Part shown: positions 320 to 10,007 of the stretch, in pieces
Layout of the letters: every line of letters starts with the position of its first letter
Position numbering within the stretch: the stretch's first letter is position 1
IMG/VR virus record: IMGVR_UViG_3300046519_000274
Coordinates: 1-31,089 of that record
Reading direction: 5' to 3' (one strand)
Source: a virus
DNA length: 31,089 nt
The notes under the pieces: generated by a model
Databases searched by the model: none
What the model was told of the DNA's origin: nothing
What the model saw: only the letters and a program-made list of their open reading frames with translations
Program-made: the position numbers and the translations under genes

Positions 320-1249
320 TTACTTCTTACGATCATTTTCTTTAGCCAACATATGCATTGTCCAGCTATTAATCCGATCTTTGTTGCGATCAGAAGGGTT
401 ATCTTTATGTGAATCGTAAGTTTTGTTGAGTGATTGACGCGAGGGATGTGAACTTTTGAGGATCACACCAGAAAAACTAGAACTATCCACGGCCAAATGT
501 GCCATTTCACCCAGAGCGACGACAACCTCTGAATCTTTAAGTGCCCCATTTATTCGCTCAAGATTCTTTAGGTTGCAAACCTCATTTTTTGTTCCTTCGG
601 TTCTCCCAGTTTTGCCCTTATAATGCACATCCTCTACGGCATTCAGTATGGTGTAATCATCCAATTGGTTAGTCGGAAATTTAGAAGGGCATTTTTCATG
701 CAAGATACTTATGGCACTTTGTAATGTTTTTCCCGTCTGACCAGCAGCAGGTCGATTGGCTATTTCCTCACACTGCCCCGGTGCAGACAAAATAATCGTC
801 GTTTTAATGTCTTCACGATCACCTTTTCTAAATGCAGATGTCGTTTCACTATTTCTTTTCTGCCTTGAGCTTTGACCAGAAGGTTTATTTTGACTCATGG
901 CTCCTACCTTTGATGAAAGCTGTTCTTTTTGAATTACTGACGCAGGCACGATATTTTTTTTCATACTCCGACGTTCTTCGTATTCCGCTTGCTTTTCGGC
1001 GCGAAGACGCTGACGTTCTTCGTATTCCGCTTGCTTAACGGCGCGAAGGCGCTGACGCTCTTCGTATTCCACTTGTTTAACGGCGCGAAGGCGCTGACGT
1101 TCTTCGTATTCCGCTTGTTTAACGGCGCGAAGGCGCTGACGTTCTTCGTATTCCGCTTGCTTTTCGGCGCGAAGGCGATCGCGATCTCCGTAAAAGATGT
1201 CGTGAAGGCCCCAGATAATCCCCCTAATTTTTCCTAACTCCTTGGACAT
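320..1249 (-). CDS. repeat-containing protein with C-terminal uracil-DNA-glycosylase-like domain
   Basis: This is a 309-residue protein. Residues 25-94 are five near-identical 14-residue units of the form RLRAxKQAEYEERQ, highly charged and predicted helical. Residues 95-148 are a polar linker. Residues 150-300 read like the family 4/5 uracil-DNA glycosylase fold: a first motif LSAPGQCEE (residues 154-162) followed by G-x-x-G-x-x-L spacing, then ILNAVEDV, then VVVALGEMAH (242-251), and finally a SSHPSRQ segment (266-272) where family members carry the HPS motif. In the family these positions form the uracil pocket and catalytic loops. The canonical GE(A/G)PG is changed to SAPGQ, so activity is uncertain. 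The ATG at 1249 has no clear Shine-Dalgarno sequence. The gene is AT-richer than the phage genes, suggesting separate acquisition. The domain call comes from motif order by eye; the gene may be an accessory or defence gene. Confidence 0.5.
   Translation of the reverse strand: MSKELGKIRGIIWGLHDIFYGDRDRLRAEKQAEYEERQRLRAVKQAEYEERQRLRAVKQVEYEERQRLRAVKQAEYEERQRLRAEKQAEYEERRSMKKNIVPASVIQKEQLSSKVGAMSQNKPSGQSSRQKRNSETTSAFRKGDREDIKTTIILSAPGQCEEIANRPAAGQTGKTLQSAISILHEKCPSKFPTNQLDDYTILNAVEDVHYKGKTGRTEGTKNEVCNLKNLERINGALKDSEVVVALGEMAHLAVDSSSFSGVILKSSHPSRQSLNKTYDSHKDNPSDRNKDRINSWTMHMLAKENDRKK
971..1182 (-). repeat. five tandem 42-bp coding repeats
   Basis: Five consecutive 42-bp units encode the 14-residue repeats of the UDG-like protein. 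The units differ by only a few bases (for example Glu or Val at the fourth position and one Ala to Val change), so the array is recent or is being homogenised. Because the unit is a multiple of three, changes in copy number keep the frame. Confidence 0.9.
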
Positions 1250-1716
1250 TCATGCTTTAAATTTATGCTTGGGCTATTAAAGACTGTATCCCCGAAAACA
1301 ATCAAACTATTTGACAGCAGAATGAATCACCACCGACCTATCTGGCTTATCGGAGCACCTTATTTTGCCCGATGTCGCTTATCGGGATTTGGCTGCAAAG
1401 GGTCGAATGCGACCCTAAGTGATGAGCTGCCAGAATCCACTACCAAAATGTACTCATCACGTAAAACGCGACATTTAATTATGACGTCGACACGGGGTTG
1501 AGCGGGGATTCTGACCACTGAATCCAAGGATCCAGCCTCAGGAACTCCCCGCAGCCCTCCGCCATTCCCCCATAAATTGGCCCAAGGATTGGCCCAGCAC
1601 TCTTTGGCGTTCTGCCACCTGAAATCCTCAAATCAAAGTCGCCTCGTCGCAATACCCTCGCGAAAATCCGAAGCCTCGATTACTGTATATTCAAACAGTG
1701 CAAAAAAGGCCCAACC
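1250..1716. promoter_or_regulatory. divergent intergenic region, leader of the SOS coiled-coil gene
   Basis: This 467-bp stretch separates the leftward UDG-like gene from the rightward coiled-coil gene. The left 216 bp are AT-rich and unique; I see no gene there. From 1466 onward the sequence is nearly identical to 6377 onward and ends in a LexA box just before the GTG start at 1717. Short frames in this segment exist in both copies but lack ribosome binding sites and differ from each other through frame-breaking changes, so I do not call them. Confidence 0.6.
1683..1698. promoter_or_regulatory. LexA (SOS) box
   Basis: The 16-base site ctgtatattcaaacag matches the CTG-N10-CAG LexA consensus with an AT-rich spacer. 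It ends 18 bases before the GTG start of the coiled-coil gene. The second copy of this gene has an equivalent site at the same place, which supports genuine SOS control rather than chance. Confidence 0.75.
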
Positions 1717-2034
1717 GTGGTCCCCTACGAAATTGAAGTCACCAGTGACTGGCTCGGCTGTCCGACCAGGCTGGAAACCGTCAAGCATTACGCAAGCATG
1801 CTCGAGGAAGATATCCAAGGCCTGAAGCGTCAGCTGCAGGCGGCCAAAAAAAATATCTCCGACTTGGTGATCATGAATGACCAACTTTCTGCAGAGCTGA
1901 AAAAGGCTCGCGCTTGGATGGCTAATCTTGAAGCGGAAACCACCGAGCAGTTGGCTGAGATTCGCAGCCTGTCGATGGTCCGCGACCAAAACGAAAGGCT
2001 GCGCATCGAACTGGACGCGGCCAAGCGTCAGTAG
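1717..2034 (+). CDS. SOS-regulated coiled-coil protein, copy A
   Basis: A 105-residue soluble protein that starts at GTG, as does its paralogue at 6627. The N-terminus (VPYEIEVTSDWLG) is short and conserved. Residues 18-105 are a nearly continuous heptad-rich coiled coil with the conserved stretch ARAWMANLEAETTEQL. There is no signal peptide or membrane segment. A LexA box lies directly upstream, so expression should rise on DNA damage. In this copy no SRAP gene follows; the stop codon at 2034 is one base from the end of the convergent Rz gene at 2036. The family is not one I can name. The link to SRAP in copy B suggests a partner role in DNA-damage handling, which is inference only. Confidence 0.8.
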   Translation: MVPYEIEVTSDWLGCPTRLETVKHYASMLEEDIQGLKRQLQAAKKNISDLVIMNDQLSAELKKARAWMANLEAETTEQLAEIRSLSMVRDQNERLRIELDAAKRQ

Positions 2035-2035
2035 C

Positions 2036-2551
2036 TCAACGACTTACCTCTCTGACAAAAGCCTGGCACGCCGCCAGCGCGATCAGTCCTTGGTCGCCGG
2101 CGTCGGTGATTCCGATAATTCGTTGAGCATGAGCTGGGTCAAGGCAGGCGCGCGCTCCTCCATGAACCACGCCGCCTGTTCCGGTACCGGCTGACACTGA
2201 ACAGCCACTGGCTGAATCCGCAGCATCGAGGAAGACTGACAGCCGCAAATCAGCAGTGGCAAGGCGATCGCGCAGGCGAGCCTGATTGGTTTGAGCATCG
2301 CTCAGTTCCTTGTAGTGGGTTTGTTCGCTGGCTGACAGCCGCTGCTCGAGCGCCAGCCGTTTCTCCTGATCGGTGCGCACCTGGTCAGCGGCGGCGTTGC
2401 TGATAGCGGTCAGATCAGCCTGATGCAGGCCGTTCTGCTCGGCGAGCTGCTTGCTGTAGCGCCAGTCCTGCACCTTCCATGTCCCGCCCACCGCCAGAAG
2501 CAACAGCGCCAGCACGCCAGCCACCGCCAGATCCAACGCCGCGGGACTCAT
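2036..2551 (-). CDS. Rz-like i-spanin, intact copy
   Basis: A 171-residue inner-membrane spanin subunit. One N-terminal membrane segment (residues about 8-24, rich in Leu/Ala/Val) is followed by a long periplasmic coiled coil, the normal plan of lambda Rz. Paired with Rz1, it joins inner and outer membranes and disrupts the outer membrane at the end of lysis. The ATG at 2551 overlaps the endolysin stop as ATGA, so translation is coupled; this fixes the start rather than longer in-frame extensions that run through the endolysin gene. Rz1 is nested in another frame. A decayed homologue lies at 8934-9458. Confidence 0.85.
   Translation of the reverse strand: MSPAALDLAVAGVLALLLLAVGGTWKVQDWRYSKQLAEQNGLHQADLTAISNAAADQVRTDQEKRLALEQRLSASEQTHYKELSDAQTNQARLRDRLATADLRLSVFLDAADSASGCSVSAGTGTGGVVHGGARACLDPAHAQRIIGITDAGDQGLIALAACQAFVREVSR
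2083..2298 (-). CDS. Rz1-like o-spanin lipoprotein, nested in Rz
   Basis: A 71-residue outer-membrane lipoprotein lying wholly inside Rz in a different frame. The signal sequence ends in the lipobox LLICGC, with the acylated Cys at residue 20. The mature part carries the VPEQAAWFMEE segment that corresponds to the proline-rich PPAWIM region of lambda Rz1. The nested architecture is the lambda Rz/Rz1 type. Confidence 0.85.
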   Translation of the reverse strand: MLKPIRLACAIALPLLICGCQSSSMLRIQPVAVQCQPVPEQAAWFMEERAPALTQLMLNELSESPTPATKD

Positions 2552-3081
2552 GCCAGCACCGCCGTCGCCTTGCCCCACAGCTTCAGGCGATCCGCCTTCC
2601 CGTTGAGCCCGCCATTGATCCGGCGGGTGATGGCTTCGAACTTGTCGGCATCGGCCAGGGTGTTGAGCCCATTGGTTGCCCAGAACCATGCCGCTGAAAG
2701 GCAAGCGTACTTCGGCTGCTCCAGCAGTTCGGGTAGGTTGATCAGGTCCAAGTCCAAGGCTTCGCCGCACGATATGTAGTTCGCTCGTCCGGTGATCTGA
2801 ATCAGGCCCCGACCGCGGTATTTGAAGCCGTCACCCGCAACGGTGTTGCCCAGGTTCTTGCGCCCCTCGTACTTTGCTTGCTGGGCAGTTGGCCCCCACA
2901 TTTCACGGACGTAGACCAGTTGGCCAGATTCATGGCCGATCTGGGCAATGAATGCAGCCACGCGCTTGGAGCCAACGATCTGATAGCGCTGCATTGCCGT
3001 GTTGAGTACTGGAACAAAAACGCCGGCTTTGGCGCCGGCGTTCGGGAGGATCTGCAGCAGTTGCTGCGCGGTGATCGGCAT
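2548..3081 (-). CDS. GH19 chitinase-like endolysin
   Basis: A 177-residue glycoside hydrolase family 19 lysozyme that cleaves the glycan backbone of peptidoglycan at lysis. The core GHESG motif carries the probable catalytic Glu51. It is followed by the KYRGRGLIQITGRANY segment typical of GH19 phage endolysins and the C-terminal INGGLNGKADR motif. There is no signal peptide or SAR helix, so a holin is needed for export; none is visible next to it. The ATG at 3081 is chosen because it follows GGAG with good spacing and matches the start of the second copy; the longer frame to 3144 would read through a terminator-like hairpin. Confidence 0.9.
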   Translation of the reverse strand: MPITAQQLLQILPNAGAKAGVFVPVLNTAMQRYQIVGSKRVAAFIAQIGHESGQLVYVREMWGPTAQQAKYEGRKNLGNTVAGDGFKYRGRGLIQITGRANYISCGEALDLDLINLPELLEQPKYACLSAAWFWATNGLNTLADADKFEAITRRINGGLNGKADRLKLWGKATAVLA

Positions 3082-3096
3082 ACTTTTCTCCAGGCG

Positions 3097-3118
3097 AAAA
3101 AATACCGCACTTGGCGGG
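3097..3118 (-). terminator. terminator-like hairpin just upstream of the endolysin RBS
   Basis: On the minus strand a CCGC/GCGG stem is followed by A and six T, then the element CGCCTGGAGA and the endolysin ATG. The stem is short. Comparable hairpin + T-run + TCTGGAGA leaders occur before other genes in this window. Confidence 0.5.
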
Positions 3119-3156
3119 ATCATTAGATAAACTGCGCCATTCACGCATGCTGGCGG

Positions 3157-3213
3157 TTATGAAGTCAGATTGGCAGTAGTAGTAGTGGGGGTGGTGATTA
3201 GTCGGGCTGTCAT
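3157..3213 (-). CDS. putative threonine-rich leader peptide
   Basis: An 18-residue frame (MTARLITTPTTTTANLTS) starts with ATG four bases after a GGGG purine run. Eight of its 18 codons encode Thr (or seven if the one at position 2 is disregarded). It stops about 40 bases before a hairpin with a T-run, followed by the endolysin start. That order is the layout of amino-acid attenuators such as thrL. The second lysis cassette keeps a related stretch but a stop codon interrupts it, so the peptide is not conserved there. It may be chance or a relic. Confidence 0.3.
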   Translation of the reverse strand: MTARLITTPTTTTANLTS

Positions 3214-3295
3214 TTTTCCCCGGCAAACTCCGACTCCATGCCAAGCAGGAAAAACTAACAACGAGTGTCGATAAATATTTTTCAGAGGTGTAGCA

Positions 3296-4300
3296 ATGGG
3301 GTTCTATCGACTAATTCTCGCCGTGCTTGTCGCGCTCGGTCACATGGGAATCATGTTTTTTGGTGTTGATCTTGGATATGGCGTTGTTGCGGTAATATCT
3401 TTCCTCATCATCAGCGGTTTTGTCATGACGGCCCTGATCGATAAGAACTACGGGAAAATAAGTAGAATCCCGGCATTCTTCGCTGATAGGGCAATGCGTC
3501 TGTACCCTCAATTCATCTTCTATCTTGCGCTGTCGTCAGTACTTATTTATACAGCGCTTGCCGACAGCCCAGTTCACGAAGCAATAACTGCAGTTAACTT
3601 ATTGGCAACGGTTGCAATGGTTCCGCTCGGACTATATATGTTCGGACTTTCCGATCCAAATATTATCCCGCAGGCGTGGTCTCTCGGTCTTGAGATGTGT
3701 TTCTATCTTGTCATCCCATTCATCTTGATATACCGGGCAAGGCTAGTATTGTTTTATGGATCAATTCTAGTTTTTACCCTTGCATTTTTTGGACATATCC
3801 ACTCCGACTGGTATGGCTACAGGCTCCTTCCGGGAGTTTTATTCATATTCCTCTGTGGCAGCTTCATAAAAAGAGGAAGCGCCTTTGAGAGACTTTCCGT
3901 GCTTGTGGCATGGTGCGTAGCTCTGGCAGGTTGCATTCTTATTGCTAAGGGTTACGCAACGTGGCGGCCCTACAACCTTCAAGTCACGGCCGGCATTGTA
4001 ATCGGTATACCAATGATTATGCTTTTGTCCAGAATTCCATATCACAGGGTAGACGAGTTCCTAGGAAATATAAGCTACGGTGTTTTTCTCAATCATTTCC
4101 TAATCATCTATGCTGGGAAGGCTCTTGGCGTAAGTAAGATAAGCGCAGAGTTGGCAGTTCTATATGTGGCGAGTGCTTTTGTTCTCAGTGGTATTTCTTA
4201 TTATCTGGCCGAGCGCCCAGTGCTCGTACTGAGGAAAAAGCTTAGAGCAAAGTCAGCTCCATCCGTATCGACGCCGACATTAGAGAGCTCTGGACTTTAA
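3296..4300 (+). CDS. acyltransferase-3 family membrane protein (putative O-antigen/polysaccharide acyltransferase)
   Basis: A 334-residue integral membrane protein with about ten hydrophobic segments. It has the acyltransferase-3 (OafA/YrhL) hallmarks: His16 in the first helix (VALGHMG), RAMRLYP after the second segment, PQAWSLGLEMCFYL in the middle, and a final helix followed by ERPV. The family transfers acyl groups to cell-surface sugars at the inner membrane. The gene is AT-richer than the phage genes and opposite to the late operon. It has its own RBS (AGAGGTG) and sits in the slot between endolysin and DUF1353 remnant. This is a typical lysogenic-conversion moron: O-acetylation of LPS would alter phage receptors (inference). 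Confidence 0.85.
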   Translation: MGFYRLILAVLVALGHMGIMFFGVDLGYGVVAVISFLIISGFVMTALIDKNYGKISRIPAFFADRAMRLYPQFIFYLALSSVLIYTALADSPVHEAITAVNLLATVAMVPLGLYMFGLSDPNIIPQAWSLGLEMCFYLVIPFILIYRARLVLFYGSILVFTLAFFGHIHSDWYGYRLLPGVLFIFLCGSFIKRGSAFERLSVLVAWCVALAGCILIAKGYATWRPYNLQVTAGIVIGIPMIMLLSRIPYHRVDEFLGNISYGVFLNHFLIIYAGKALGVSKISAELAVLYVASAFVLSGISYYLAERPVLVLRKKLRAKSAPSVSTPTLESSGL

Positions 4301-4444
4301 GATGACTTTCCGCTTGGAGGGACGAAATACTTCATAACCGCCAGACACAAAAGCCGCCTGTAGCGCGGCTGCGGTGATTATTTTGGAGTTCCAGTAGCTG
4401 CTTGGGTCTGCCAATAAAGGGTCTGCGCGGTGATGAGCGTTCAT
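4280..4444 (-). CDS. small 54-aa hypothetical protein overlapping the acyltransferase 3' end
   Basis: Translation from the ATG at 4444 gives a 54-residue frame with a central segment ITAAALQAAFVSGGYEVF and a basic C-terminus. Support for the start is good: it follows TCTGGAGA, the same RBS element used by the endolysin and DUF1353 genes, and the ATG overlaps the TGA of the upstream DUF1353 remnant as ATGA. The 3' end overlaps the convergent acyltransferase gene by 21 bases, which suggests the acyltransferase was inserted next to it. A hairpin with a TTTT tract lies within the frame. No function is recognised. Confidence 0.4.
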   Translation of the reverse strand: MNAHHRADPLLADPSSYWNSKIITAAALQAAFVSGGYEVFRPSKRKVILKSRAL

Positions 4445-4575
4445 TGATCTCCAGACGAAGAAAACATCGAACGGGTCGGGGTCGTGGTGTAGTGCTTGGC
4501 GCCGCCTATCCTGACGCCGGCCCAGAACAGCCAGGCCCGCCAGCGAGCGAGCGAGCGAGCGACGTTCTTTGTTGG
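4441..4575 (-). pseudogene. 3' remnant of a DUF1353 gene
   Basis: The minus strand encodes RWRAWLFWAGVRIGGAKHY, matching the C-terminus RWRAWLFWVGVRIDGVKRY of the intact DUF1353 protein at 11139-11513. The 5' three quarters are missing. At the break the tetramer agcg is repeated about five times. After the matched part the frame runs on 15 more codons and ends in a TGA overlapping the next ATG. This shows that a second copy of the tail-end locus once existed here. Confidence 0.7.
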
Positions 4576-4863
4576 TCGACCACTACAAAAGTAGCTTATC
4601 TAACTAACAGAATTCAGCTGGAACATCGCTCCAACTCCCAGCACCTCATGCACGCAGGACCCATGCAAGACCCTTTGTTTTGGCCGTAATCATTGGCGCT
4701 CGCTGCAACCGAATGCCCAGTAGTGCTTATAAGCGCGTGAGAAAGTCACGCAAAAGTCACGCATGCCTTTTTGGCACCCTCCCCGGCGTCCTGCCGACGA
4801 ACCCAAACCCCCTACATGCAGTATTTTCGAATGCTACGCTGAAATCTCCACGGAGGATTCGCG
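4576..4863. other. non-coding stretch with short direct repeat
   Basis: No supported gene is seen in this 288-bp stretch. It contains a tandem 10-base repeat aagtcacgca at 4743-4752 and 4754-4763. The last 30 bases match the leader of the broken 69-aa gene at 8053 and include the ribosome binding site of the gene at 4864. Confidence 0.5.
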
Positions 4864-5073
4864 ATGCCAAACTCAGATCTACTCCCTTCCCTGCTGTTCA
4901 AGATCAATGAAAACCAGCTCGCCCTGGAGGCCGCCATCATGGAGCTTTCGAACTGGGTTGAGCAACGCGGTGCGGCCGACGTCGCCGACAACGTGCGTGG
5001 TGCACTGGACACGATCGACAAAAATGAAGAGTTCATCAAGCTGACGCTCGCGGTGATGATGGCGCCGGAGTGA
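4864..5073 (+). CDS. conserved small protein (69 aa), intact copy
   Basis: A 69-residue acidic, mostly helical protein starting with ATG after GGAGG. It has no signal peptide or membrane segment. The N-terminus PNSDLLPSLLFKINENQLAL is conserved in a second, broken copy at 8053-8261, which argues that it is a real gene carried by both duplicated blocks. It resembles small Pseudomonas hypothetical proteins; I cannot assign a function. Its neighbours are prophage debris on the left and the Sel1 gene on the right. Confidence 0.7.
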   Translation: MPNSDLLPSLLFKINENQLALEAAIMELSNWVEQRGAADVADNVRGALDTIDKNEEFIKLTLAVMMAPE

Positions 5074-5141
5074 CTGCACAGCCATTTCCGGTCAGTCGTG
5101 ACAGGTATAGGTTTAACATCCCTCCGTCTCAATGCCACATT

Positions 5142-5234
5142 TGTCGCATGTCATGTCGCAGATAATTGAGTACCTGCGACAGACTCACGCGACATCGAAA
5201 TGCCTTTGCCATCAGGTCCCAATGAGTCGTCGCA
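5142..5234. repeat. cluster of TGTCGCA motifs in both orientations
   Basis: The heptamer TGTCGCA occurs at 5142-5148 and 5154-5160, in inverted orientation (TGCGACA) at 5175-5181, and as shorter matches near 5189-5194 and 5229-5234. Two of the units form an inverted repeat with a 14-base spacer. Such clusters can be protein-binding sites (regulator or recombinase arm sites); there is no proof of which. Confidence 0.4.
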
Positions 5235-5269
5235 TAACTCAGGAAATATGCGAAGGAGTGGATCAACAC

Positions 5270-6181
5270 TTACCTAAACGAGTTTTTGGGCTGGTATATT
5301 TTAAAATAATTTCCTGCTAGTTCTTGTGCGTCGGCTAGCTGTGTTTGGGATAGCTGTTTAGCAGCACGATCTCGAAACTTACTGACACTAGAGTCCCCAT
5401 TGGCCGCAGCGACAGAGAACCAGACATAAGCCTGTTTATAATCCTGCGGAACGCCTTTACCGTTGGCGTAGCTAAACCCAAGGAAAGACTGGGCATCAAC
5501 TATGCCCTGCTCGGCGGCCTTGCGGTACCAGATGACTGCCTGCTTATCGTCCTGCGCCACGCCTTCACCTTCAGCATAGCTATTCCCAAGGCTGGACTGG
5601 GCAAAGGCGTCGCCCTGTTCGGCGGCCTTGCGGTGCCAGGCCACCGCCTGCTTCGCATCCTTTGCTACACCTTCACCCAAGCCGTAGAGAAGCCCGAGGA
5701 AAGACTGGGCAGAGGCGTCGCCCTGTTCGGCGGCCTTGCGGTACCAGACCACCGCCTGCTTCGCACTCTTAGCTACGCCCTCACCCTTAAAATATTGCAT
5801 TGCAAGATATACCTGGGCTTTGGCATAACCCTGTTCGGCGGCCTTGCGGTACCAGACCACCGCCTGCTTCGCATCCCGCGCAAGGCCTACCCCGTAGGCG
5901 TAGCAAGACCCAAGGCTGGACTGGGCAGAGGCGTCACCCTGTTCGGCGGCCTTGCGATACCAGGCCACCGCCTGCTTTGCATCTTGCACAACGCCATCGC
6001 CCTTCGAATAACGTTCTCCGAGGTTGAGCTGGGCAGAGGCATCTCCCTGCTCAGCCATTTCCTGAATCGTTATGAGATCCTCGGAGGCATACGCATAGCT
6101 GGCTGACGCTAATAAGCAAAGCGTCAGAAAGAAGGAGCGCGCATAGCGCTCGTAAAGTGGGGTTACGGTTGACTGGTTCAC
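5270..6181 (-). CDS. exported Sel1-repeat (TPR-like) protein
   Basis: A 303-residue protein. An N-terminal signal peptide (hydrophobic core FFLTLCLLASASYAYA, residues about 17-32) is followed by about seven Sel1-like repeats of 36 residues with the pattern A-Q-x-x-L-G-x-x-Y-x-x-G-x-G-V-x-x-D-x-K-Q-A-x-x-W-Y-x-K-A-A-E-Q-G. The family forms right-handed solenoids used for protein binding in the periplasm. The frame opens at a GTG (6181) with a weak AGGGA RBS. The repeats are very similar at DNA level, producing long antisense frames that are not genes. It stands alone between the duplicated blocks, so it is probably cargo. Confidence 0.85.
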   Translation of the reverse strand: MNQSTVTPLYERYARSFFLTLCLLASASYAYASEDLITIQEMAEQGDASAQLNLGERYSKGDGVVQDAKQAVAWYRKAAEQGDASAQSSLGSCYAYGVGLARDAKQAVVWYRKAAEQGYAKAQVYLAMQYFKGEGVAKSAKQAVVWYRKAAEQGDASAQSFLGLLYGLGEGVAKDAKQAVAWHRKAAEQGDAFAQSSLGNSYAEGEGVAQDDKQAVIWYRKAAEQGIVDAQSFLGFSYANGKGVPQDYKQAYVWFSVAAANGDSSVSKFRDRAAKQLSQTQLADAQELAGNYFKIYQPKNSFR

Positions 6182-6592
6182 GTCCCTGCGCTCACTAAAT
6201 TAAAAAAGAGCCCGAGGTTAATCGATAGAGGCTATTGGCGCATTAAAATAGGGCTCTGCGCTTGATTGGAACCATAGATTTACCATGAATCCCGTTATGC
6301 GCACCCCTCGCTCGCTTACCTTGGCTCGGTTTACCGACCGCTATATTGGGTCGACTGCAGCCGTTCTAGTGGATAGACGCGACATTTAATTATGACGTCG
6401 ACACGGGGTTGAGCGGGGATTCTGACCACTGAATCCAAGGATCCAGCCTCAGGAATTCCCCGCAGCCCTCCGCCATTCCCCATAAATTGGCCCATAAATT
6501 GGCCCAGCCCTCTTTGGCGTTCTGCCACCTGAAATCCTCAAATCAAAGTCGCCTCGTCGCAATACCCTCGCGAAAATCCGAAGCCCCGACTA

Positions 6593-6608
6593 CTGTATTC
6601 ATAAACAG
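6593..6608. promoter_or_regulatory. LexA (SOS) box
   Basis: The 16-base site ctgtattcataaacag again fits CTG-N10-CAG and sits 18 bases before the GTG start at 6627, exactly as in copy A. The spacer bases differ from copy A, whereas both CTG and CAG ends are kept, as expected under selection for LexA binding. Confidence 0.75.
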
Positions 6609-6626
6609 TACCAGAAAGGCGAAACA

Positions 6627-6947
6627 GTGGACCCCTACGAAATCGAAGACACCAGTGATTGGCTCGGCAGTCCGACCAGGCTGGAAACCGTCAAGCATTA
6701 CGCCCATATGCTCGAGGAGGATATCGACGAGCTGAGGCGGCAATTGCATGTGGCGAAAGAAAACATTTTCACCCTTGTCGAAATGAACGACCAGCTGTCT
6801 GCCGAACTCCATAAAAAGCGGGCATGGATGGCGAACCTGGAAGCGGAAACCACCGAGCAGCTTTCCCAGATCCAAAGTCTGACGCTGGTCTTGGATCAAA
6901 AAGAAAAGATCATTCGCGAGCTGCAAGCGTGCAATCAGAGGGGCTGA
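6627..6947 (+). CDS. SOS-regulated coiled-coil protein, copy B
   Basis: A 106-residue paralogue of the protein at 1717-2034, with the same GTG start and N-terminal pattern PYEIEDTSDWLG. The coiled coil spans residues about 18-102 with the shared RAWMANLEAETTEQL segment. The stop lies two bases before the ATG of the SRAP gene, so the pair is a tight operon under the LexA box at 6593. The tail of the protein differs most from copy A. Pairing with SRAP suggests that it acts in, or scaffolds, the response to abasic or damaged DNA; this is inference. Confidence 0.85.
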   Translation: MDPYEIEDTSDWLGSPTRLETVKHYAHMLEEDIDELRRQLHVAKENIFTLVEMNDQLSAELHKKRAWMANLEAETTEQLSQIQSLTLVLDQKEKIIRELQACNQRG

Positions 6948-6949
6948 AC

Positions 6950-7645
6950 ATGTGCGGACGACTTTCTCAATACGATGGCATTCACGACTTCGTGGCGGCA
7001 CTCAGCATGCCCAACCCTCTGGTAAACAGCGCTGGCGATCATCCGTTCGAGCGGTATAACGCCGCCCCGACAACCCAGCTCGCCATCTTTCACCAGGAAG
7101 GTGAATACCTGCACGCTGACATGGTTCGCTGGGGATGGCGCCCGCATTGGGCCAAGGATCGCGCAGCACCGATCAATGCCAGGGTGGAAAAAGTCGCCCA
7201 CGGCCCGTTCTTCCGTGCCATCTGGCCGCACCGGGCAATCATCGCGATCAACAACTGGTTTGAATGGGTGGATGAAGGCGGACCGAAAAAGCAGCCGTAC
7301 CTGATCCGCAGCCGAGACCGGGCGCCGATATTGTGCGCTGCGATCGGCCAATACCCGAACGCCGAGCATGAGCCGAGTGAGCATGACGGCTTCGTCATCA
7401 TCACCGCCGACAGCGCCGGTGGCATGGTGGACATACACGACCGACGGCCAGTGACGCTATCGCCTGAACTGGCTCGAGAATGGCTCGACCCGGCCACGCC
7501 AAAGGAGCGCGCCGAACATATGGTGATGCACCAGGGCGAGCCAACTGAGGCGTTCGAGTGGTTCAAGGTGGATCGCGCGATTGGCAACGTGCGCAATCAG
7601 GGTCCCGACCTGATAAAGCCGGCCGAGGAAAGCGGCTTGTTCTAA
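6950..7645 (+). CDS. SRAP-family SOS response-associated protein (YedK/HMCES-like)
   Basis: A 231-residue SRAP protein that covalently traps abasic sites in single-stranded DNA through Cys2 and protects them. All key residues are present: MCGR at the start (Cys2 after Met removal), RYNAAPT at 36-41, WGW at 61-63, Asn76 in INAR, Glu105 in NNWFEW and His163 in DIHDRRPV, at almost the same positions as E. coli YedK. Length is normal for the family. The ATG at 6950 is required to place Cys at position 2; an upstream in-frame extension through the coiled-coil gene is not real. It shares the LexA-controlled operon with the coiled-coil gene, and its 3' end overlaps the convergent gene at 7642. Confidence 0.95.
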   Translation: MCGRLSQYDGIHDFVAALSMPNPLVNSAGDHPFERYNAAPTTQLAIFHQEGEYLHADMVRWGWRPHWAKDRAAPINARVEKVAHGPFFRAIWPHRAIIAINNWFEWVDEGGPKKQPYLIRSRDRAPILCAAIGQYPNAEHEPSEHDGFVIITADSAGGMVDIHDRRPVTLSPELAREWLDPATPKERAEHMVMHQGEPTEAFEWFKVDRAIGNVRNQGPDLIKPAEESGLF

Positions 7646-8052: not shown

Positions 8053-8261
8053 ATGCTCAACTCAGAACTGCTCCCTTCCCTGCTGTTTAAGATCAATGAA
8101 AACAAGCTCGCCCTGGAGGCTGCCGTATGGAGCTCACGTGTTGGGTTGAGCAGCGCTAAGCGGCTGAGGTCGGCGGCAACACCCGTGGCGCCCTTTAAAC
8201 GATCGACAAGAGCGAAGATCTCATCAAGATGACGCTTGCAGTGATGATCGCGCCTGATTGA
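8053..8261 (+). pseudogene. broken second copy of the 69-aa small gene
   Basis: The first 26 codons closely match the intact gene at 4864 (SELLPSLLFKINENKLALEA), including its RBS region. A net loss of two bases near 8127 shifts the frame, and further indels follow. The last part still encodes recognisable downstream sequence (aagatgacgcttgcagtgat in another frame) up to a TGA at the corresponding place. The gene is therefore dead while its homologue is intact. Confidence 0.8.
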
Positions 8262-8277
8262 CTTTGCGGTAGGAGAG

Positions 8278-8382
8278 ATGTCGGAGGCCTTTGTGTGGTT
8301 TAAGGTCAACGTTGCTGTGGGCAATGTGTGCAACAAGACCAGTAGCTTAATCGCGGCACTGTATGAAATAATGGCACAATGA
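8278..8382 (+). pseudogene. 3' remnant of a second SRAP gene
   Basis: A 34-codon frame reads SEAFVWFKVNVAVGNVCN, matching the C-terminal TEAFEWFKVDRAIGNVRN of the intact SRAP protein 0.7 kb upstream. The rest of the gene is absent. It lies directly after the broken 69-aa gene, so a second SRAP gene was lost when the duplicated blocks were joined. Confidence 0.65.
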
Positions 8383-8933: not shown

Positions 8934-9458
8934 CTATCGCGAAACTTCCCGCACATACGCCTGGCACGCCGCCAGGGCAATCAATCCTTGGTCGCCGGTG
9001 TCGGTGATGGCGACAATTCGATGAGCATGCGCTGGGTCAAGTCGGGCGCGCGCTCCTCCATGAGCCACGCCGCTAGCTTCGGCACCGGCGCGCATTGAAC
9101 AGCCACTGGCTGAGCCCTCGGCAAGGAGGACTGACAGCCGCAAATCAGAAGTAGCAAGGCGATCGCGCAGGCGAGAAATATTTTTCTGTGCATCACTAAA
9201 TTCCTTGAAATACGTTTCGTCTATCACTTGAAGACGGTCTTCCAAGGCTTTACGTCTGCCCTTCTCCGCCTCCTGCCTATCGATAACAGCCAAGGCTGAA
9301 ACCTCTCGTTCGCGCTGATACGCCGCTGCCTGCCCGGCTAGCTCGGCACGGTAGTGGTTGGCCTGCCACTACCAGGCCATCCAAGCACTAAGAGCCATAA
9401 GGGAGCCCCCTATTGCGAGCACCATCCGAACCCTGAGCCACACAATCGAGCCGATCAC
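8934..9458 (-). pseudogene. Rz-like i-spanin interrupted by an amber codon
   Basis: This is the second Rz copy. The GTG at 9458 overlaps the endolysin stop (GTGA) and the frame encodes the N-terminal membrane segment (residues about 4-29). Codon 30 (9369-9371) is TAG, after AWMAW and before WQANHYRAEL. The rest of the frame, including the C-terminus that matches the intact copy, is open. Related Rz proteins often have Gln here, so a CAG to TAG change is likely. Unless the amber codon is suppressed, no full spanin is made. Confidence 0.8.
8981..9196 (-). CDS. Rz1-like o-spanin lipoprotein, second copy
   Basis: A 71-residue nested lipoprotein frame, open in full, homologous to the Rz1 at 2083-2298. 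It keeps the lipobox LLICGC and the VPKLAAWLMEE segment. It is embedded in the interrupted Rz gene, so whether it is still translated is uncertain, but its own frame has no damage. Confidence 0.7.
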   Translation of the reverse strand: MMHRKIFLACAIALLLLICGCQSSLPRAQPVAVQCAPVPKLAAWLMEERAPDLTQRMLIELSPSPTPATKD

Positions 9459-9988
9459 GCCAACACCGACGAGGCTTTTGCCCACAACTTCAACCGGTCT
9501 GCCTGGCCATTGAGCCCGCCGTTGATCCGCCGCGTGATGGTTTCGAACTTGTCGGCATCGGCCAGGGTGTTCAGCCCATTCATTGCCCAGAACCAAGCGG
9601 GCGACAGGCAGGCGTACTTCGGCTGCTCCAGCAGTTCGGGTCGGTTGATCAGGTCCAGACCAAGGGCTTCGCCGCACGCCGCGTAGTTCGCCCGGCCGGT
9701 GATCTGAATCAGGCCACGCCGCGGTACTTCTGGCCGTCACCCGCGACGGAGTTGCCCAGGTCTTTGCGGCCTTCGTACTTGACTTGCTGGGTGGTTGGCC
9801 CCCAAATCTCACGGACATAGACCAACTGGCCAGACTCATGGCCGATCTGGGCAATGAACGCGGCCACGCGTTTGGAGCCGACAATCTGATAGCGCTGCAT
9901 TGCCGTGTTGAGGACAGGAACAAAAAACGCCAGCTTTTGCGCTGGCGTTCGGAAGGATCTGCAGCTGCTGCTGCTGGGTGATGGGCAT
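9455..9988 (-). pseudogene. GH19 endolysin with two frameshifts
   Basis: The second endolysin copy starts MPITQQQQLQILPN at the ATG 9988 after TCTGGAGA. At 9922-9927 a run of six A (plus strand) replaces the five in the intact gene and shifts the frame after residue 22. The middle part (MQRYQIVGSKRVAAFIAQIG, GHESG) is then in another frame. A second one-base loss near 9716-9720 in the RGRGL segment shifts again. The 3' end still reaches the TGA at 9455. The first change is in a homopolymer and could be a sequencing error; the second is not. Confidence 0.85.
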
Positions 9989-10007
9989 TCGTTTTCTCCA
10001 GACGATA

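Follow-up and report, generated by a model that had tools for sequence, protein, structure and literature searches.

The window analysed here is the entire IMG/VR viral contig record IMGVR_UViG_3300046519_000274, with a length of 31,089 bases. It carries two genes for small coiled-coil proteins, cc1 and cc2, each preceded by a LexA-type operator, and a gene for a SRAP protein that follows cc2 (Table 1). The original prediction, made from the DNA sequence alone, had described CTG-N10-CAG boxes at 1683 and 6593, both with cores 18 nucleotides (nt) ahead of GTG start codons, paralogous coiled-coil genes behind them and a complete SRAP gene 2 nt after the second one. All of these features were found as described. 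The two coiled-coil proteins are 70% identical, and their genes differ by 31 non-synonymous and 29 synonymous codon changes. The prediction had mentioned neither the prophage nature of the locus nor the duplication of a segment of about 530 bases, whose copies are 84% identical overall and 99% identical over 105 bases (1466-1570). Because the upstream regions and the genes copy this one segment, the operon is present twice in the window, and the two boxes represent a single observation; independent evidence for the box is supplied by relatives outside the window.

Table 1. Features of the coiled-coil/SRAP locus and of the adjoining lysis genes, in coordinates of the window.
Feature	Position	Strand	Remarks
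LexA-type operator 1, TACTGTATATTCAAACAGTG	1681-1700	+	core CTGTATATTCAAACAG at 1683-1698
LexA-type operator 2, TACTGTATTCATAAACAGTA	6591-6610	+	core CTGTATTCATAAACAG at 6593-6608
cc1, 105-residue coiled-coil protein, GTG start	1717-2034	+	no SRAP behind; convergent with Rz (open reading frame end 2036)
cc2, 106-residue coiled-coil protein, GTG start	6627-6947	+	predicted helix 18-105; conserved disordered tail 1-17
SRAP (YedK/HMCES-type), 231 residues, complete	6950-7645	+	starts 2 nt after cc2 (ends 6947)
Remnant of a second SRAP C-terminus	8272-8367	+	53% identical over residues 196-227
Duplicated segment, first copy (operator region and most of cc1)	1466-1996	+	84% identical to 6377-6906
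Duplicated segment, second copy (operator region and most of cc2)	6377-6906	+	
Lysis cassette A (Rz-like, GH19 endolysin)	2036-3096	-	head-on to cc1
Lysis cassette B, second copy, beyond SRAP	8934-9994	-	GH19 frameshifted

Read together with the flanking bases, each box is close to the standard LexA site of 20 nt, and both show the palindrome CTGT-N8-ACAG near the start codon. In its loose form, CTG-N10-CAG, the pattern occurs five times in the window where 10 occurrences are expected, i.e. without enrichment, and we therefore counted only the strict site and its conservation as evidence. The strict form CTGTAY-N6-ACAG was found twice against an expectation of 0.04, and none of 100 shuffles reached two. 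Scanning collections of genomes and of viruses together with Pseudomonas genomes, we obtained 145 distinct cc genes for which 45 nt or more of upstream sequence was available. A CTG-N10-CAG box lies 16-22 nt before the start codon in 141 of them, while only 88 of 3154 other open frames of the same loci, used as a control, have a box at a comparable place. The four cc genes lacking the box comprise two fragments, one gene with a shifted start codon and one whose start is misplaced. When 39 representatives (clusters at 70% identity) were aligned on the box, the TA-CTGT...CAG core was invariant and most positions further upstream varied. The box is kept even where the cc proteins are just ~35-40% identical, and the same box is present in the phages PseuP_222, VW-6S and PseuP_224. 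Taken together, its frequency, its invariant core and its survival of protein divergence make LexA control of the cc genes, as proposed in the original prediction, well supported by comparison.

Searches of cc against Pfam, NCBIfam (at the curated cut-off), PHROGs and PADLOC yielded weak generic coiled-coil matches and no specific family, and a profile search of the PDB returned generic coiled coils only. Some relatives are annotated as 'DarA' or 'minor tail protein'; we dropped both names, as no profile match supports either. A search of one literature library found no paper on this family. The AlphaFold2 monomer model, built with 43 relatives, consists of one helix over residues 18-105 with a predicted local distance difference test (pLDDT) score of ~97, preceded by 17 disordered residues. 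The disordered tail and the first turns of the helix are best conserved, with 3.3-3.6 bits in the first 20 residues (MDPYEIEDTSDWLGxPTxLE) versus 1.3-1.9 bits in the C-terminal half. The predicted helix shows regular a/d heptads with an asparagine (N54) at an a position, suggestive of a parallel dimer. A variable rod carrying a conserved flexible tail would be expected of an adaptor whose short motif is offered to a target protein, and cc, which is predicted to form a long rod of helix with a disordered tail, is probably such a protein-binding adaptor.

The family was found in the genomes of 95 of 299 Pseudomonas species, some of which hold several copies, and the sole match in a draw of 369 genomes of the same class was the Pseudomonas reference itself. 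Since the relatives in annotated phages and genomes all belong to Pseudomonas, with the exception of one unannotated faecal contig, we conclude that the window is a fragment of a Pseudomonas prophage.

SRAP proteins of the YedK/HMCES type cap abasic sites in single-stranded DNA. The SRAP protein of the window matches PF02586 over the whole domain (5.3e-46; 1-214 of 214) and phrog_1599 with 1.4e-74, and it keeps Cys2, Asn76, Glu105 and His163 in an alignment with YedK (2icu/6kcq). With these catalytic residues retained, it would be able to cap abasic sites as well. Directly behind the 145 cc genes we found an intact SRAP gene in 65 cases, a SRAP remnant in eight, a short SRAP-like gene in three, none in 68 and a contig end in one. 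Conservation in many relatives thus strongly supports the cc-SRAP operon described in the original prediction, but in the majority of cases no intact SRAP gene follows cc. Acyltransferases are among the other genes found behind cc. The short SRAP-like proteins (~150 residues; L054:1002-1472, L055 and L058) retain an MCG start and an IHDR motif, match Pfam only weakly (0.0042) and are possibly degenerate or diverged SRAP proteins.

Taking SRAP in viral contigs as the starting point, we found three LexA-boxed forms: SRAP behind cc, SRAP behind a phrog_19595 protein, and SRAP alone with its own box ~60 nt upstream. The phrog_19595 leader (loci L275-L329, e.g. L275:343-1068) has 241 residues and a C-terminal four-cysteine motif, is unrelated to cc and gave a structure model of low confidence (pLDDT 59.5). 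Its box is located 22-25 nt upstream in 52 of 53 cases, and it is followed by SRAP in 24 of 56 and by a SRAP remnant in three. The forms are nearly exclusive: among 25 records with one of the other forms, a single one contains cc. A convergent lysis gene lies within 3.5 kb of cc at 124 of 142 loci, and opposing lysis genes are likewise present at phrog_19595 leaders and at some loci with SRAP alone. The same layout exists in the classical P. aeruginosa phage F116 (L331), where a box is followed by a 171-residue leader, SRAP and the convergent Rz and endolysin genes. Here the box, CTGTATATTCATACAG, is at 1605, 36 nt before F116p69 and upstream of the SRAP gene; the leader is weakly similar to phrog_19595 (E 4e-4, probability 33%).

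From these data we propose that the locus represents an accessory operon of Pseudomonas prophages that is repressed by LexA and composed of an autonomous leader and an optional SRAP gene, in a conserved slot that faces the lysis genes; we give this explanation a probability of about two thirds. Comparison supplies its box, its slot, its modularity and the conserved tail, and prediction supplies the helix, the heptads, the SRAP fold and the catalytic residues. The slot is located where the late region ends, with the lysis genes running head-on towards it, and holds a LexA box, a leader (cc here, phrog_19595 or nothing in other phages) and, optionally, SRAP. As the functional steps we infer LexA binding, induction, target binding and capping of abasic sites. 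DNA damage would lead to RecA filaments and LexA cleavage, so that the leader and its cargo would be expressed independently of the late genes and their promoter. The SRAP protein made in this way would cap abasic sites in single-stranded DNA of both phage and host. The cc protein would act separately from SRAP, as a rod-shaped oligomer whose conserved N-terminal tail is presented to another protein. This target most likely belongs to the SOS response, to replication or to regulation, in the host or the phage, and its binding may modulate the damage response or prophage induction.

Several points weigh against this explanation. At 18 of the 142 cc loci there is no recognised opposing lysis gene, and a search for a sigma-70 consensus promoter at the two boxes of the window recognised none. 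Protein binding need not be the reason why the cc tail is conserved. In addition, IMG/VR contigs are the source of most relatives, and many of these contigs are fragments from a few sampling projects.

The main rival explanation, which we regard as unlikely, is that cc is a LexA-controlled antirepressor similar to GfoA and GftA of the Gifsy prophages or Tum of phage 186, binding the repressor of its own or of a co-resident prophage and thereby tying induction to the SOS response. As in Gifsy (PMC3121763), cc is a small gene with a LexA box, often with a GTG start, and it is located away from the immunity region, for instance in PseuP_222 and VW-6S. Its rapid divergence and many variants would fit a varying target, and cc is common in Pseudomonas genomes, in several copies in some. 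However, an S24-type repressor is present in 34 of the 39 large cc-bearing phage records as well as in PseuP_222 and VW-6S, although many of the S24 matches begin past the usual cleavage region. S24 repressors can respond to RecA directly, which makes an antirepressor less likely. Furthermore, the cc tail is conserved over all clades despite the diversity of the phages, and cc matches no sequence family.

The original prediction had seen in cc an unrecognised partner of SRAP in the DNA-damage response. In this role, cc would bind SRAP or recruit it to damaged single-stranded DNA, with the operon ensuring joint expression. In many phages the two genes do form an operon with a 2-nt gap, with intact SRAP after 65 cc genes, and in the 16 of the 39 large records that have both genes, SRAP is part of the cc operon with a single, degraded exception. 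Nevertheless, intact SRAP is missing after 80 of the 145 cc genes, and the other 23 records have no SRAP at all. SRAP is about equally frequent behind the unrelated phrog_19595 leader and also occurs without any leader. Along the cc tree the presence of SRAP changes at least 26 times, compared with 36-52 changes for shuffled labels, a pattern of some inheritance and much exchange. Moreover, cc diverges much faster than the adjoining SRAP (mean distance 0.55 versus 0.15), and E. coli YedK works without such a protein. The correlation of cc and SRAP distances (Mantel r 0.61) is biased by the choice of SRAP loci and was not used as evidence for an interaction. This exchange of leaders and of SRAP is poorly consistent with a dedicated partner, and we consider this role improbable.

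It is very improbable that the operon acts mainly through transcription, with LexA-driven transcripts colliding with the lysis genes and delaying lysis during the SOS response and the proteins being secondary: the convergent arrangement is conserved, the cc1 stop codon is 2 nt from the Rz end and no plus-strand terminator was found between them, but the proteins are conserved, above all the N-terminal tail, and the distance to the lysis genes ranges from 2 nt to more than 1 kb, often with other cargo in between.

Overall, a LexA-repressed operon with an autonomous leader and optional SRAP accounts best for our data. As a tentative extension, cc and phrog_19595 might be interchangeable damage-response effectors in a dedicated SOS slot, with SRAP as shared optional cargo, and cc might found a new class of phage SOS modulators that act via a disordered tail on a coiled-coil rod. 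What this study adds is the cc family itself, a conserved slot with a LexA box, and leaders that replace one another and may or may not be followed by SRAP; phage SRAP with a proposed link to the SOS response (PMC3765255) and LexA-controlled prophage genes as a kind were already known. SRAP is hereby placed in a defined, swappable operon with a LexA box, in many Pseudomonas species, and the operon offers two unannotated candidate SOS effectors. Leader alone, leader with SRAP, and SRAP alone provide clean natural comparisons, and the lysogens concerned are amenable to laboratory culture and induction.

Regarding the surroundings, the late genes of the window (terminase, portal, capsid, tape measure and tail fibre, with the lysis cassette last) are on the minus strand, and the cc/SRAP locus, which is on the plus strand, is found at their lysis end. 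The second lysis cassette is 81-87% identical, in pieces, to 2046-3087, and the window seemingly consists of two tandem right-end modules of related phages. A 69-residue open reading frame of phrog_12397, a family of unknown function, is also duplicated (4864-5073 and 8053-8262, both plus strand; second copy degraded), and it occurs upstream of phrog_19595-SRAP operons as well. Between the two cc copies lies a gene for a Sel1-repeat protein (5270-6181, minus strand; phrog_8741) with a signal-like N-terminus. The membrane acyltransferase at 3296-4300 (plus strand; phrog_3333, O-acetyltransferase) is likely an O-antigen-modifying moron, and acyltransferases recur beside cc in other phages.

A protein of 309 residues (320-1249, minus strand) has a C-terminal domain of the uracil-DNA-glycosylase superfamily (PF03167, 5.9e-6) and, at its N-terminus, 42-nt tandem repeats that encode charged 14-residue units similar to EYEERQRLRAVKQA. 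The antiphage glycosylase Brig1 belongs to the same superfamily (PMC11078745). A search of the viral contigs for this protein found zero relatives, and we set it aside as separate from the system; to connect it with SRAP and abasic sites would be speculative.

Among the closest known systems is the SRAP family (PF02586; YoqW of phage SPbeta), and the SRAP of the window is a member by profile and active-site residues. Aravind et al. 2013 (PMC3765255) described SRAP genes both from temperate phages and from SOS operons; SRAP is common in temperate phages, and its use to the phage is a proposal only (PMC3765255). What distinguishes the operon of the window is its LexA-boxed leader, a coiled-coil protein here and phrog_19595 elsewhere. 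No polymerase gene (UmuC, DinB or ImuB) was found beside the window SRAP.

The Gifsy antirepressors GfoA, GftA and GfhA are small prophage genes directly under LexA and outside the immunity region (PMC3121763). Like these and Tum of phage 186, cc is small, has a LexA box and is located outside the immunity region. In contrast to them, most phages carrying cc have an S24 repressor, and cc faces lysis genes and can be followed by SRAP, whereas the Gifsy gene is preceded by dinI. The operon also resembles the morons at the att ends of prophages, which have their own promoter, lie on the strand opposite the late genes next to the lysis genes and carry variable cargo such as an acyltransferase. Unlike morons, the cc operon is under a conserved LexA site and would therefore be expected to be on during the SOS response and not in quiet lysogeny.

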